Of a DNA stretch of 6,122 nt, positions 83-5,687 are shown in pieces. The translations under genes were made by a program, and so were the position numbers. This DNA is from Chloroflexota bacterium (lineage in GTDB: Bacteria > Chloroflexota > Anaerolineae > J102), in the NCBI GenBank assembly GCA_003353825.1, contig PIVW01000359.1:1-6122 (forward strand), in the 5' to 3' direction. The notes below the pieces were generated by a model that saw nothing but the letters and a program-made list of their open reading frames with translations, was not told the DNA's origin and searched no databases. The stretch's first letter is position 1; each line of letters starts with the position of its first letter.

Positions 83-434
83 TTAATTTTCGAAGGTTTT
101 GAACTAGCACCATTGGTTAGTATATACGTGTTGCGTGATGGCTGTGCAAACGGAATACGCCTTTCTATACTGACAACCGTATCTCCTCAATATCCCGGGC
201 ACTCGCCGAATAAATTCGGACTCTGGGGGCGGGGTTCTACGAACCTATGCCGAACGTCCACCTACATGGACGAGTGGTTCCCTCCAAGTTATTGAGAAGA
301 TACTTTTTTTAGTAGGAGCCATGCAAATTCCGCTCGGGCCGACACGATTAAGCCGATTTCCTCCTTGATCCCAGCCGATAAGTCGGGAGCCTGGCTTCCC
401 CCTCAACGTGGATGACGCGGCTCTCTTGTCGTTC
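83..434. other. Intergenic stretch, mostly without genes
   Basis: No credible gene is seen in this stretch. It contains copy A of the structured repeat (178-303), followed at once by a run of seven Ts (304-310), so the repeat's closing stem plus the T-run could act as an intrinsic terminator in the + direction. From 321 an ATG frame runs 15 codons to a TGA at 366 and then stays open in the same frame to 470. It may be the remnant of a dead gene, but the AGGAG at 314-318 is only two bases from that ATG, too close for a normal ribosome binding site. Confidence 0.6.
178..303 (+). repeat. Structured repeat, copy A (~126 bp, paired ends plus three hairpins)
   Basis: This is the first of two directly oriented copies; the other is at 1769-1895. 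The ends pair: GTATCTCCTCAATA (179-192) against TATTGAGAAGATAC (290-303), 13 of 14 positions. Inside are three hairpins. P2 is CCGAAT/ATTCGG (206-211 with 214-219). P3 is a GGCG/TGCC outer stem enclosing GGTTC-TAC-GAACC (228-251). P4 is CGTCCA/TGGACG (255-260 with 267-272). A 39-base core (227-265) differs from copy B by one base. It could be a MITE-like element with terminal inverted repeats or a non-coding RNA. No target duplication is visible at its ends, and no transposase is nearby. Strand is given by analogy with the flanking genes. Confidence 0.85.
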
Positions 435-495
435 ATTGGCCAATGCATTTTATTGACCAATGCATTTTATTGACCAATGTTACTTATTGACCAAG
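435..495 (+). promoter_or_regulatory. Four tandem ATTGRCCAAK dyads, 17-bp period (probable operator array)
   Basis: The dyad ATTGGCCAAT (435-444) is followed by ATTGACCAAT (452-461), ATTGACCAAT (469-478) and ATTGACCAAG (486-495). Starts are exactly 17 bp apart. The first copy is a perfect palindrome, extended to 12 bp with its flanks; the others differ at the centre or last base. Copies two and three lie in an exact duplicate of a 17-mer (440-456 and 457-473), and a third, diverged unit occupies 474-490. The array ends 22 bp before the hydrolase start codon and 8 bp before its ribosome binding site, a natural place for a repressor or activator array. Each later copy also contains TTGACC, a -35-like hexamer, but no convincing -10 box stands at the right distance. 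The binding protein is unknown. Confidence 0.65.
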
Positions 496-517
496 ACTTG
501 ACGTAAGGAGCTTATAA

Positions 518-1207
518 ATGTCTGTTACAATCACATCTCATGGTCATTCCACCTTCACCATCGCTAGCGATGGGACGAAACTTCTGATCGACCCTTTCTT
601 TACGGGCAACCCTTTGGCAAAAATCTCTGCGACTGATGTCGAGGCAGATTTCATTTTGGTCTCTCATGGCCATGATGATCACACCGGTGACCTTGTCGAG
701 GTCGCCAAACGCACCGGAGCACTTGTCATCGCCAATTTCGAGATCGTGGGTTGGCTTGGCAACCAGGGTGTCGAAAACGTCCATCCCCTTCATATCGGCG
801 GTGGCAATCAGTTCCCCTTTGGCCGCTGCAAAATGACCATCGCTCACCATGGCTCCGGTTTGCCCGATGGCAGTTATGGCGGTAACCCTGCCGGTTTTCT
901 GCTAAGTTTCAATAATGGTGCAACCGTTTACTACGCCGGCGACACAGCCCTGACCTATGATATGAAATGGCTTGCCGATTATGCCATCGACGTCGCCATT
1001 CTTCCTGTCGGCGACAATTTCACCATGGGACCGGACGATGCCATCAAGGCCGTGCAGTTGATCAAGCCAGAGACCATCATCCCTTGTCATTACGGTACCT
1101 GGCCCTATATCGATATCGACGTGAAAGCCTTTCAGTACCGTTGTATCTTAGAAGCATCCAGCGGTTGTGTGATATTGGCACCTGAAAGTTCCTACACGTT
1201 CGGATAA
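518..1207 (+). CDS. UPF0173-type metal-dependent hydrolase (metallo-beta-lactamase fold)
   Basis: This 229-residue protein has the full metallo-beta-lactamase signature. H50-G-H52-D-D54-H55 is the HxHxDH metal site. AHHGSG around H110-H111, the GDT at D142 and the CHYGTWP segment with H191 supply the remaining ligands. Length and motif order match the UPF0173/YtkL-like family of cytosolic metal-dependent hydrolases, whose natural substrate is generally unknown. There is no signal peptide. The start ATG is set by TAAGGAG at 504-510, seven bases upstream. The gene lies directly behind the four-dyad array, so it is the likely first target of whatever binds there. The DUF1858-type gene follows after an 87-bp gap with no evident terminator, so co-transcription is possible. 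All predicted metal ligands are present, so it should be active. The family call is strong; the substrate is not predictable. Confidence 0.93.
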   Translation: MSVTITSHGHSTFTIASDGTKLLIDPFFTGNPLAKISATDVEADFILVSHGHDDHTGDLVEVAKRTGALVIANFEIVGWLGNQGVENVHPLHIGGGNQFPFGRCKMTIAHHGSGLPDGSYGGNPAGFLLSFNNGATVYYAGDTALTYDMKWLADYAIDVAILPVGDNFTMGPDDAIKAVQLIKPETIIPCHYGTWPYIDIDVKAFQYRCILEASSGCVILAPESSYTFG

Positions 1208-1294
1208 AATAGTTTACACAAACACAACACACATTGTTGGATCAAGACTCCGGTAACCACACACGCCGAGACCTTGATCTCAGGAGGTTCACAC

Positions 1295-1738
1295 ATGACC
1301 ACCGTCGCCATTGTGCTGGCCGCGTTTGCGCTTGCCTATGCGTTTCTGACGCAGCGCAAACTCCAGGATGTCACACGACGCCTTGTACGTACCAACAGCC
1401 ATGTCTACGAGTTGTCAGCTCAGCTTGAGACGCTCGCAGATAAGCAGGAAGCTGAGAGGAAACAGTTGAGTTTCGAGATCAAACAAGCATCTGGGCAGAT
1501 CGAAATCGGCCCTAAAACCACCATTGGTGAGATTCAGACCGTCCATCCTGATGCTGACAGAATCTTGGGCGGTTTTCACATGGGAGGCTGCCAGAGCTGT
1601 GCGGTCGATCCGGGTGAAACCGTCGCCGATGCTTGCGAACGACTCGAAGTCAACGAAGCAGCCCTGTTGGCGGCCCTCAAAGATGATGGTGGCGAGATGA
1701 TTCCATTATCCCTAGGCAATATCGAACTGCAGTTTTGA
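1295..1738 (+). CDS. Membrane-anchored DUF1858-like CxxC protein
   Basis: The protein has 147 residues if begun at the ATG at 1295, which has AGGAGG (1282-1287) seven bases upstream. An in-frame TTG at 1274 would put that ribosome binding site inside the gene and is disfavoured. Three parts are visible. Residues about 3-19 are a hydrophobic helix (VAIVLAAFALAYAFL) that would anchor the protein. Residues about 20-68 are charged and Gln/Glu-rich, likely a coiled coil. Residues about 71-130 resemble DUF1858, the small disulfide-type domain often found with hybrid-cluster proteins: TTIGEI, then HPDADRILGGFHMGGCQSC with C99 and C102, and a further C114. Stand-alone DUF1858 proteins are usually short and soluble, so the anchor and coiled coil are notable. 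The pair of cysteines suggests a thiol or metal role. The domain assignment is from motif resemblance only. Confidence 0.8.
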   Translation: MTTVAIVLAAFALAYAFLTQRKLQDVTRRLVRTNSHVYELSAQLETLADKQEAERKQLSFEIKQASGQIEIGPKTTIGEIQTVHPDADRILGGFHMGGCQSCAVDPGETVADACERLEVNEAALLAALKDDGGEMIPLSLGNIELQF

Positions 1739-1768
1739 TGTTGCTGGTACGATTAGATTAACCTTTTT

Positions 1769-1895
1769 CGTATCTCTTCAATAGACTGGGACACTAGCTG
1801 AATGAATTCAGCCTCTGAGGGCGGGGTTCTACGAACCTACGCCGAACGTCCACCTACGTGGACGAGTTGATTCCTCCGAGTTGTTGAGAAGATAC
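1769..1895 (+). repeat. Structured repeat, copy B (~127 bp), just upstream of the double-CxxC gene
   Basis: This is the second copy of the element at 178-303, in the same orientation and about 80% identical by eye. The closing stem is GTATCTCTTCAATA (1770-1783) with TGTTGAGAAGATAC (1882-1895). Two of its differences from copy A leave G-U pairs in RNA. P2 is GCTGAAT/ATTCAGC (1797-1803 with 1806-1812); relative to copy A, one C-G pair has become T-A on both sides of the stem. P3 spans 1820-1843, with CGCC restoring a Watson-Crick pair that is G-U in copy A. P4 is CGTCCAC/GTGGACG (1847-1853 with 1858-1864), one pair longer than in A. It ends 32 bp before the next start codon, so it may lie in that gene's leader. 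Unlike copy A it is not followed by a T-run. Confidence 0.85.
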
Positions 1896-2461: not shown

Positions 2462-3769
2462 ATGCCCAAAAAAATCGCAATCGTCGGCGCCGGTATCGCA
2501 GGGCTGTCTGCAGCCTATGATCTAACAGGGGCCGGCCATCAGGTAACACTGTTCGAAGCAGCAGCAGAGGTCGGGGGGCTGGCGGCAGGCTTTAAGGCGC
2601 CCCACTGGGATTGGACCCTGGAAAAGTATTACCATCACTGGTTCCAGAGCGACAGCTACATGCTGGGATTTATCGAGGAATTGGGCTGGAGCGATCAGGT
2701 TCATTTTCCACGCCCCTATACTGCAGTCTACCACGACGGAACCTTCCAGCTACTTGATTCCATTCCCGAAGCTGCCAAATTTACACTTCGTAATTTCTCA
2801 ATTTTTGATTTCATTCGATTCGGATCGGCGGGGCTCTATCTTCGCCTCACCCCCTGGTGGAAGCCGCTAGAAAAAGTGACGGCAGACGCCTGGATACGAA
2901 AATGGGTGGGCATGAACCTCTATCAAGCCCTATGGAGACCCTTGCTCGTCGGCAAATTCGGTGAAGAGAACTATGCTATCGTCAACATGGCCTGGTTCTG
3001 GGCCCGGATCAAGACGCGTACCACGCGTTTGGGTACGTTTGAAGGTGGCTTTCAGGCATTTCTGAATAAGCTGGCCGATGTTTTAGGCGCTAGAGGCGCC
3101 AACATCCAGCTTGCTTGTCCTGTGACAGCTATCCAGCGCACCGATGCTGGGCTCGCTGTGATGACCGACGGTGCTAGCGAGACCTTCGATGCGGTGATCT
3201 CAACCAGTTCACCCACAGTGATGGCTCGAATAGCCCCAGATCTGCCTGACAGTTATACTGCCAGTTTGCGAGCGCTCAAGTCGATGGGCGCGGTGGTCAT
3301 GGTTGTAACCCTCGACCGCCAGCTCACCAACTACTACTGGCACAACCTCCCCAAAGAAGCAGGCTTTCCCTTCCTGGCCATGGTCGAGCACACCAATTTT
3401 ATCGGGTCTGAGCACTTTGGTGGGGATCACATCCTCTATATGGGTGATTACCTCGATCCCGGCCATGCCTATTTCAACTTAAGCAAAGAGGAGCTGCTCA
3501 AGCAATTTCTGCCAGCACTCACACGGTTCAACCCTGACTTTGATCCCAGTTGGGTGAAGGACTCCTGGCTCTTCAAAACCAGGTACGCCCAGCCCATCCC
3601 TCCTGTCAATCATTCCAAAAACATCCCTCCTTTACGCACACCTGTGCCCGGCCTCTATTTTGCCAGCATGAGCCAGGTTTACCCCTGGGATCGTGGCACC
3701 AACTTCGCTGTCGAACTGGGACGCCGTGTGGCGGGTTATGTCATAGAGGATGTACAACAGGACAAGTGA
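2462..3769 (+). CDS. FAD-dependent oxidoreductase, amine-oxidase / protoporphyrinogen-oxidase-like
   Basis: This 435-residue flavoprotein has an N-terminal dinucleotide-binding fold: GAGIAGLSAAYDL (GxGxxG at residues 9-14), the acidic E32 that binds FAD ribose, and the EVGGLA motif at 36-41 typical of the amine oxidase/PPOX superfamily. The C-terminus (about 395-430) carries the matching FAD-binding segment PGLYFAS...YPWDRGTNFAVELGRRVAG. Length fits the family, and there is no signal peptide or C-terminal membrane helix. Related enzymes oxidise protoporphyrinogen, carotenoid precursors or amines, or work in polysaccharide and lipid pathways. Nothing nearby (no glycosyltransferase, haem or carotenoid gene) decides among these, so the substrate stays open. 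The start ATG lies 7 bp after the stop of the peroxiredoxin fragment and has only a weak AAGAG before it. The gene appears intact. Confidence 0.88.
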   Translation: MPKKIAIVGAGIAGLSAAYDLTGAGHQVTLFEAAAEVGGLAAGFKAPHWDWTLEKYYHHWFQSDSYMLGFIEELGWSDQVHFPRPYTAVYHDGTFQLLDSIPEAAKFTLRNFSIFDFIRFGSAGLYLRLTPWWKPLEKVTADAWIRKWVGMNLYQALWRPLLVGKFGEENYAIVNMAWFWARIKTRTTRLGTFEGGFQAFLNKLADVLGARGANIQLACPVTAIQRTDAGLAVMTDGASETFDAVISTSSPTVMARIAPDLPDSYTASLRALKSMGAVVMVVTLDRQLTNYYWHNLPKEAGFPFLAMVEHTNFIGSEHFGGDHILYMGDYLDPGHAYFNLSKEELLKQFLPALTRFNPDFDPSWVKDSWLFKTRYAQPIPPVNHSKNIPPLRTPVPGLYFASMSQVYPWDRGTNFAVELGRRVAGYVIEDVQQDK

Positions 3770-5283: not shown

Positions 5284-5318
5284 AACCCGAACGGCCGCGG
5301 CCGTTCGGGTTATTTTAT
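5284..5318 (+). terminator. Strong palindromic terminator after the Mrp gene
   Basis: Bases 5284-5311 form a perfect 28-bp palindrome, starting AACCCGAACGGCC and folding into a GC-rich stem of up to 13 pairs. It is followed by ATTTTAT and preceded on the other side by an A-rich stretch (GAAAAAGATTTT, 5271-5282). It stands 27 bp after the Mrp stop codon. The symmetry and the flanking A and T runs suit termination in both directions. Confidence 0.88.
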
Positions 5319-5543: not shown

Positions 5544-5687
5544 AGAGTCCACTGAAAAAAGCCTATTAACCGCAGAGATCGCAGAGGAAAACATAGGGTT
5601 TTACGGGAAACACGCGTCCAAACCCCACCATTTTTGCTGTTGTCTCGGCTTTTACTGTTTGTTTAGACCCTTTTTTCAGGGGAGTCT
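5544..5687. mobile_element. MITE-like element, 144 bp, 18-bp inverted ends and ATTA target duplication
   Basis: The left end AGAGTCCACTGAAAAAAG (5544-5561) and the complement of the right end (5670-5687, read inward AGACTCCCCTGAAAAAAG) match at 16 of 18 positions without a gap. The element is flanked on both sides by ATTA (5540-5543 and 5688-5691), consistent with a 4-bp target duplication. The interior has no coding capacity. It contains AACCGCAGAGATCGCAGAGG (5569-5588), which resembles the AACCRCAGAG-type repeats that I recall as scattered through many environmental bacterial genomes. It is too short for a transposase, so it would be mobilised in trans. It ends 47 bp before the response-regulator start and may affect that gene's promoter. 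Confidence 0.65.

Follow-up and report, generated by a model that had tools for sequence, protein, structure and literature searches.

Two copies of a hairpin-rich repeat in a Chloroflexota contig are probably old miniature transposons with IS66-type ends

The insertion sequence (IS) ISDge4 of Deinococcus geothermalis, a member of the ISBst12 group of the IS66 family, has the ends GTGACTACTCAGCA and GTAACTGCTCAGCA, one open reading frame (ORF) and an 8-bp repeat, according to the accessible part of its description (PMC12898284). Non-autonomous transposons of the miniature inverted-repeat transposable element (MITE) type are exemplified by MITEPsy1 (PMC3189936) and MITECca01 (PMC9769881), which the available portions of these papers present as elements of about 100 and 240 bp with IS-like inverted ends, no transposase and several to many copies; an IS5-like parent has been proposed for the former and an IS982 parent for the latter. 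The available text of PMC10907252 also states that MITE sequences form stable stem-loops. Repetitive extragenic palindromic (REP) sequences with GTAG/CGTC tags are likewise short, palindromic and high in copy number, with a length of 20–40 bp in the accessible text of PMC3733652. The present analysis concerns a repeat of 125–126 bp that occurs twice in a 6,122-nucleotide stretch of DNA (i.e. the window) from a Chloroflexota bacterium (contig PIVW01000359.1). Each repeat is probably a MITE of an IS66-type, ISBst12-like insertion sequence (probability about 0.93), and the two window repeats are most likely old copies of a gene-less element moved by an IS66-type transposase. This reading is directly supported by the ends, the 8-bp duplications of relatives, full insertion sequences, the co-occurrence of ends and transposase, and the lack of the element at corresponding sites in relatives.

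The two repeats lie on the same strand at 179–303 and 1770–1895 and share 86% identity, and the flanks beyond them show little similarity. A first-pass annotation, made from the letters of the window, had placed them at 178–303 and 1769–1895; the repeats are real but one left flanking base had been wrongly included. Its description of paired ends and three internal hairpins (P2, P3 and P4) common to both copies was borne out. The parts are as follows.

179–303, + strand: MITE copy 1 (125 bp), intergenic, upstream of a metallo-hydrolase gene
179–192, + strand: copy 1, left terminal inverted repeat GTATCTCCTCAATA, which differs from the family end at 1 position
206–219, + strand: P2 hairpin of copy 1, near-palindrome CCGAATAAATTCGG
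228–251, + strand: P3 hairpin of copy 1, long form
255–272, + strand: P4 hairpin of copy 1, with C·A in place of the closing C-G pair, which was lost
290–303, - strand: right terminal inverted repeat of copy 1, exactly GTATCTTCTCAATA on the - strand
1770–1895, + strand: MITE copy 2 (126 bp), between the genes at 1295–1738 and 1928–2269
1770–1783, + strand: copy 2, left terminal inverted repeat GTATCTCTTCAATA, which differs from the family end at 2 positions
1798–1811, + strand: P2 hairpin of copy 2, in which C-G has become T-A by a double change
1820–1843, + strand: P3 hairpin of copy 2, long form
1847–1864, + strand: P4 hairpin of copy 2
1882–1895, - strand: copy 2, right terminal inverted repeat with 1 mismatch

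These repeats have the attributes of a MITE. They are short and lack a transposase ORF (among the listed frames that overlap copy 1, none exceeds 71 aa), their 14-bp ends form terminal inverted repeats with 0–2 mismatches to the family end, and copies are multiple and dispersed, with two in 6 kb of the window and seven close ones in another genome of the class (G299). In size and in the absence of a transposase gene the window element differs from ISDge4. It differs from the REP palindromes, as these are described in the accessible part of PMC3733652, in its length, in ends that start with GTAT and in the 8-bp duplications of its family. Under the proposed mechanism, a single-ORF DDE transposase encoded elsewhere would recognise the inverted ends GTATCTTCTCAATA (14 bp, often ~22 bp) and would move any sequence lying between them, with duplication of 8 bp of target; the subfamily in the window carries, between these ends, a three-hairpin module that is also found in other repeats of the class.

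The distribution of the ends was examined at several depths. BLASTN against 24 relatives' genomes detected pieces of the element in 12: multi-copy hairpin repeats contained the P2 part, the P4 part lay elsewhere, and the ends GTATCTTCTCAATA and their reverse complement were found in G021 and G006, among others. An end pattern, GTATCTYYTCAATR, was present in 4 of 32 genomes, with 64 copies in G021 (i.e. Chloroflexi bacterium HGW-Chloroflexi-1, the genome of locus L021); the same pattern read backwards gave 0 matches in G021 and a single match in the 32 genomes, in G031. The exact 14-mer GTATCTTCTCAATA occurred in 63 of 396 sampled genomes of the Chloroflexota class to which G299 belongs, as compared to one match for the reversed control. 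One genome of 4.1 Mb (G155) contained 990 end sequences when the 22-base version was searched with up to 3 mismatches; this end-rich genome gave only a 106-residue transposase match. When 298 genomes of the class were searched with a covariance model built from the two window copies (R1), 30 had matches at E ≤ 0.01, but close copies occurred only in G299, where one locus (L131) scored 145.6 bits and six others 94–108 bits. L131 is the closest relative (87–90% identical to the window copies). At E 1e-6 and with stricter filters, R1 matched only G299 and G042 among 400 genomes of the phylum. P3 takes a short form, GGCG-TAC-CGCC, in six G299 copies (L161–L166), and both of its arms are longer in the window copies and L131. 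No match was obtained in viral contigs with the core pattern or the end pattern, in phages and plasmids searched with window positions 150–330 at E 0.1, or in genome contigs with a pattern containing 18 fixed P3 bases. No paper on MITEs of the ISBst12 group, or on MITEs of this Chloroflexota class, was recognised in a literature search that was thin on subscription journals, and one may be in print. The present data add an abundant MITE family with IS66-type ends.

Target-site duplications were then scored in the fetched loci, where ends pair up 79–263 bp apart. Among 111 distinct paired-end elements, 60 had an exact 8-bp direct repeat and a further 13 agreed at 7 of 8 bases; shuffling of the right flanks led to an expectation of ~0.9 elements at 7 or 8 of 8, with the reservation that the partner with the best duplication was kept for ends with several partners and that the shuffled control involved no such choice. 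All seven G299 copies scoring 94–146 bits with R1, L131 included, had exact 8-bp duplications (e.g. TAGAAAAG, GTAGAGGG and TACCGCGC). The interiors of the 73 elements with duplications of 7–8 bases fell into 20 clusters without detectable similarity, all with the same ends. This diversity, like the proposed IS66-type parentage, is unlike MITEPsy1 and MITECca01 as far as the available portions of their descriptions go.

The sites of both window copies were compared with those of eight relatives. Several relatives share the order hydrolase, gene 2, gene 3, FAD oxidoreductase, Mrp with the window, some of them lacking gene 2 or any match to it. The gap that precedes gene 3, which holds copy 2 in the window, lacked the element in 8 of 8 relatives, in which it measured 31–167 bp (189 bp in the window, or 63 bp minus the element); genes 2 and 3 delimited this gap in L001, L002, L020 and L021, and the hydrolase and gene 3 in the other four, where gene 2 was unmatched. 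Similarly, no element was found in the 409–439 bases examined upstream of the hydrolase, the copy 1 site, in any of the eight. An element would have been recorded from an end with fewer than 4 mismatches or from any of five module words.

A partner transposase was sought among 46 transposase loci from 11–13 end-rich genomes, comprising IS256 (2), DDE_Tnp_1 (30 of 51 matches), IS1595 (7) and IS66 (7). Bracketing was defined as ends with up to 3 mismatches, in opposite orientation and 700–3500 bases apart. None of the fetched IS256, DDE_Tnp_1 or IS1595 loci was bracketed by ends, and these families were rejected as partners. The one bracketed locus of the 46, L314 in G101, is of IS66 type. This element is 1866 bp long with the ends GTATCTTCTCAATATTCCGGGGGTAGCG and GTATCTTCTCAATAGGTTGGGGTAGCG, an 8-bp duplication (AGTGACAT) and a single 556-aa frame at 123–1790 of the element, the product of which matches the Pfam domain DDE_Tnp_IS66 (PF03050; E 6.4e-13, 49.2 bits, cut-off 23.1). 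Two other full insertion sequences were found with exact 8-bp duplications, one of 1815 bp in G321, the ends of which carry 2 and 1 mismatches, and one of 1835 bp in G263, with one stop in its frame. Three elements of ~1.8 kb with exact duplications (AGTGACAT, AATTTCTC and TGCAGATG) and the same or nearly the same ends as the MITEs encode IS66-type transposases; the same-end autonomous loci are L314/L322, L326 and L324 (2 and 1 mismatches), in genomes other than those of the closest MITE copies. Unpaired ends in other loci were checked by eye for long elements, and no transposase was recognised, although no family search was made.

Matches to the L314 transposase were present in 25 of 396 genomes, many of them fragmentary. 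Ends were detected in 17 of these 25 genomes as compared to 46 of the 371 others (both, 17; transposase alone, 8; ends alone, 46; neither, 325; Fisher p 1.4e-9), on the assumption that the end search and the transposase search sampled identical genomes. The partner would lie near the ISBst12 group because of its single ORF, the length of its repeat (8 bp) and the similarity of its ends to those of ISDge4. Both ISDge4, in the accessible part of its description, and the partner combine a single transposase ORF encoding an IS66 domain with an 8-bp duplication and two ends that diverge past the first 14 bp, and, of the 14 positions of the family end, 9 and 10 are shared with the two published ISDge4 ends. 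A difference from the ISBst12 group is that the partner transposase is only distantly IS66-like, above the Pfam and below the NCBIfam cut-off. From these sequence comparisons, an IS66-type transposase probably moves the MITEs in trans.

Several observations weigh against this reading. The flanks of copy 1 (TGACAACC and TTTTTTTA) agree at 1 of 8 positions and reveal no target duplication, while those of copy 2 (CCTTTTTC and CTATTGTC) agree at 5 of 8, which is not a convincing duplication. More generally, 38 of the 111 paired elements match at 6 or fewer of the 8 flank bases, and full insertion sequences in G151 (1849 bp), G084 and G212 show no duplication despite an end at either side. The L314 transposase scored 119.8 bits against NCBIfam NF033517, below the IS66 cut-off of 180. 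There is no transposase in the 6.1-kb window, no transposase match longer than 62 residues was obtained from G299, where the closest copies lie, and 46 of the 63 end-carrying genomes had no transposase match at E 1e-10. Draft genomes may be the cause of these end-only genomes. The missing duplications at the window copies fit decay: both copies are probably old and immobile, with duplications that have been eroded, and we infer rather than observe their own insertion events.

The first-pass annotation had offered two explanations, selection on an RNA or a folded small mobile element, and had judged the pattern of differences to be non-random with respect to the fold. Comparison of the 38 consensus pairs predicted by RNAalifold found 2 pairs changed on both sides, 3 changed on one side and none broken between the copies. 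Excluding one gap, 17 substitutions separate the copies over 126 columns; stems hold somewhat fewer of these (6 in 72 paired columns) than unpaired columns (11 in 54; Fisher p 0.066). The pair changes described at first exist, but are less tidy once polarised with L131 as outgroup: changes in either copy affected 6 of 36 pairs, with one compensatory double change (P2), three changes to G·U and two to A·C, such that 2 of the 6 break pairs. The reported P3 change from G-U to G-C is a real difference read in the wrong direction, as the G·U of copy 1 is derived and not ancestral. The A-to-G change thought to lengthen P4 is also a real difference, but L131 has G at this position and the closing pair was broken in copy 1, a loss there and not a gain in copy 2. 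The other of the two breaks, a C·A mismatch in the terminal stem (element positions 7/120), is present in both window copies and is invisible to a two-copy comparison. As this case illustrates, two-copy covariation is weak evidence for an RNA. The contrast drawn with plain DNA inverted repeats was not borne out, as a transposon's terminal inverted repeat forms the outer stem.

The inner three-hairpin module was followed across genomes. It occurs in six genomes (G009, G013, G008, G007, G003 and G042) with 0 copies of the exact end 14-mer, and in G042 it forms tandem arrays of 158–160 nt units at two chromosome sites (L188, 1463–2721; L191, 1142–2526). Further, less regular series of modules were seen in L190 and L193 of the same genome. 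In a set of 28 copies, 96.9% of cells were paired and 9 of 16 pairs were double-changed, as compared to 23–45% and 3–5 in slid controls. These copies were hand-chosen from 56, thinning near-identical ones, and the pattern that found the 56 had fixed the P2 core and required a paired P4 and CT in the P4 loop; pairing was partly imposed, and free evidence is limited to P3, the outer pairs of P2 and the outermost pair of P4. A set of 10 copies found by sequence similarity had 93.8% of cells paired and 3 of 16 pairs double-changed (slid controls, 35–51% and 0–1), with P4 outside most of the matched stretches and one copy (L088) misaligned by a base in P4. In this set the outermost P4 pair exhibits three pair types (3, 3 and 3 copies; one unpaired), and the P4 loop is CTNC in 9 of the 10 copies. 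Two of five measures for the 10 copies do not stand out clearly from shuffles, the double-changed-pair count being reached by 38 of 500 shuffles and the pair-type count by 297 of 500. The module hairpins seem to be kept as hairpins. Non-Watson-Crick cells comprised 9 G·U, 9 A·C and 5 others in the 28-copy set and 1, 6 and 4, respectively, in the 10-copy set. An RNA read from the given strand is expected to tolerate G·U more, and no such strand-specific tolerance was seen. The lack of a bias to G·U fits palindromes at the DNA level, maintained either by function or by palindrome-correcting mutation. Such mutation is able to produce double changes too, and palindromic DNA repeats can yield covarying stems of the kind observed across module copies. 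Across genomes the inner hairpins covary, without lending support to an RNA.

A structured RNA (e.g. a leader, a small RNA or a ribozyme-like molecule) with stems under selection and duplicated by chance would account for the strong folding of the + strand (z -3.9 and -4.8 for the two copies against 200 shuffles each) and for covariation of the module in both sets, yet the - strand folds to a similar degree (z -3.9 and -3.8). Neither the balance of G·U and A·C cells nor the polarised changes favour it, the numbers of double-changed pairs and of pair types in the 10-copy set were reached by 38 and 297 of 500 shuffles, respectively, and double changes have the alternative source of palindrome correction. 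An Rfam search with the element gave no matches at E up to 1, which agrees with the initial impression that no known riboswitch or ribozyme was involved. Such an RNA would also leave unexplained the exact 8-bp duplications around relatives, the 20 dissimilar interiors within common ends, and the absence of the element at matching places in eight relatives. We consider this explanation very unlikely, and the selection on an RNA proposed at first is unsupported; the same ends, duplications and empty sites, together with the same-end insertion sequences, strongly support the alternative of a folded small mobile element. Paired DNA repeats account for the hairpins better than a new regulatory RNA does, and an apparent new RNA becomes an ordinary, testable mobile element. 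A REP palindrome or bacterial interspersed mosaic element (BIME), mobilised by a REP-associated tyrosine transposase (RAYT, TnpA-REP), would share the short, intergenic, palindromic, many-copy character of these repeats, but is disfavoured to the point of being negligible by inverted ends of 14–22 bp starting with GTAT, by the 8-bp duplications and by the occurrence of the same ends on an IS66-type insertion sequence.

The MITE explanation is compatible with a composite origin, to which we assign about even odds, whereby a stand-alone hairpin repeat, as folded DNA or RNA, was captured by IS66-type ends and is now their cargo. Occurrence of the module in genomes without exact end 14-mers and its tandem arrays in G042 are consistent with this origin, as are the diversity of same-end interiors and the folding of their representatives, which had z below -3 in 10 of 20 clusters (the window type had z -1.2). 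Conversely, some module copies without both ends are perhaps decayed MITEs, L134 and L196 having kept a recognisable right end only, and capture may have had either direction. In either event the data point to a conserved hairpin module occurring both inside and outside IS66-type ends. Rather doubtful, although conceivable, is that these ends are an interchangeable carrier that repeatedly picks up unrelated palindromes, including a module that is independent in other genomes, keeps its stems and P4 loop across the class and is perhaps functional as folded DNA or RNA.

Other features of the window were noted around the genes. The FAD-dependent oxidoreductase (2462–3769) was 79% identical to the nearest other protein among the matches listed, from a Caldilineales metagenome-assembled genome. 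It is preceded at 2278–2454 by a 58-aa AhpC/TSA fragment, for which L001, L002 and L020 likewise match over 52–56 residues only; it could be either a short conserved gene or an old remnant. At 432–494, in front of the metallo-hydrolase gene, lie direct repeats with a 17-nt spacing that resemble TTTATTGACCAATGCAT. A second MITE-like element at 5545–5686 has inverted ends near GAGTCCACTGAAAAAAG and CTTTTTTCAGGGGAGTC, with 27-nt arms that are 78% complementary, 90 nt between them and TATTAA on both sides; its ends are unlike those of the 125–126-bp element. Just past the Mrp gene, a perfect inverted repeat with 14-nt arms (5284–5311) is followed by ATTTTA and is possibly an intrinsic terminator.

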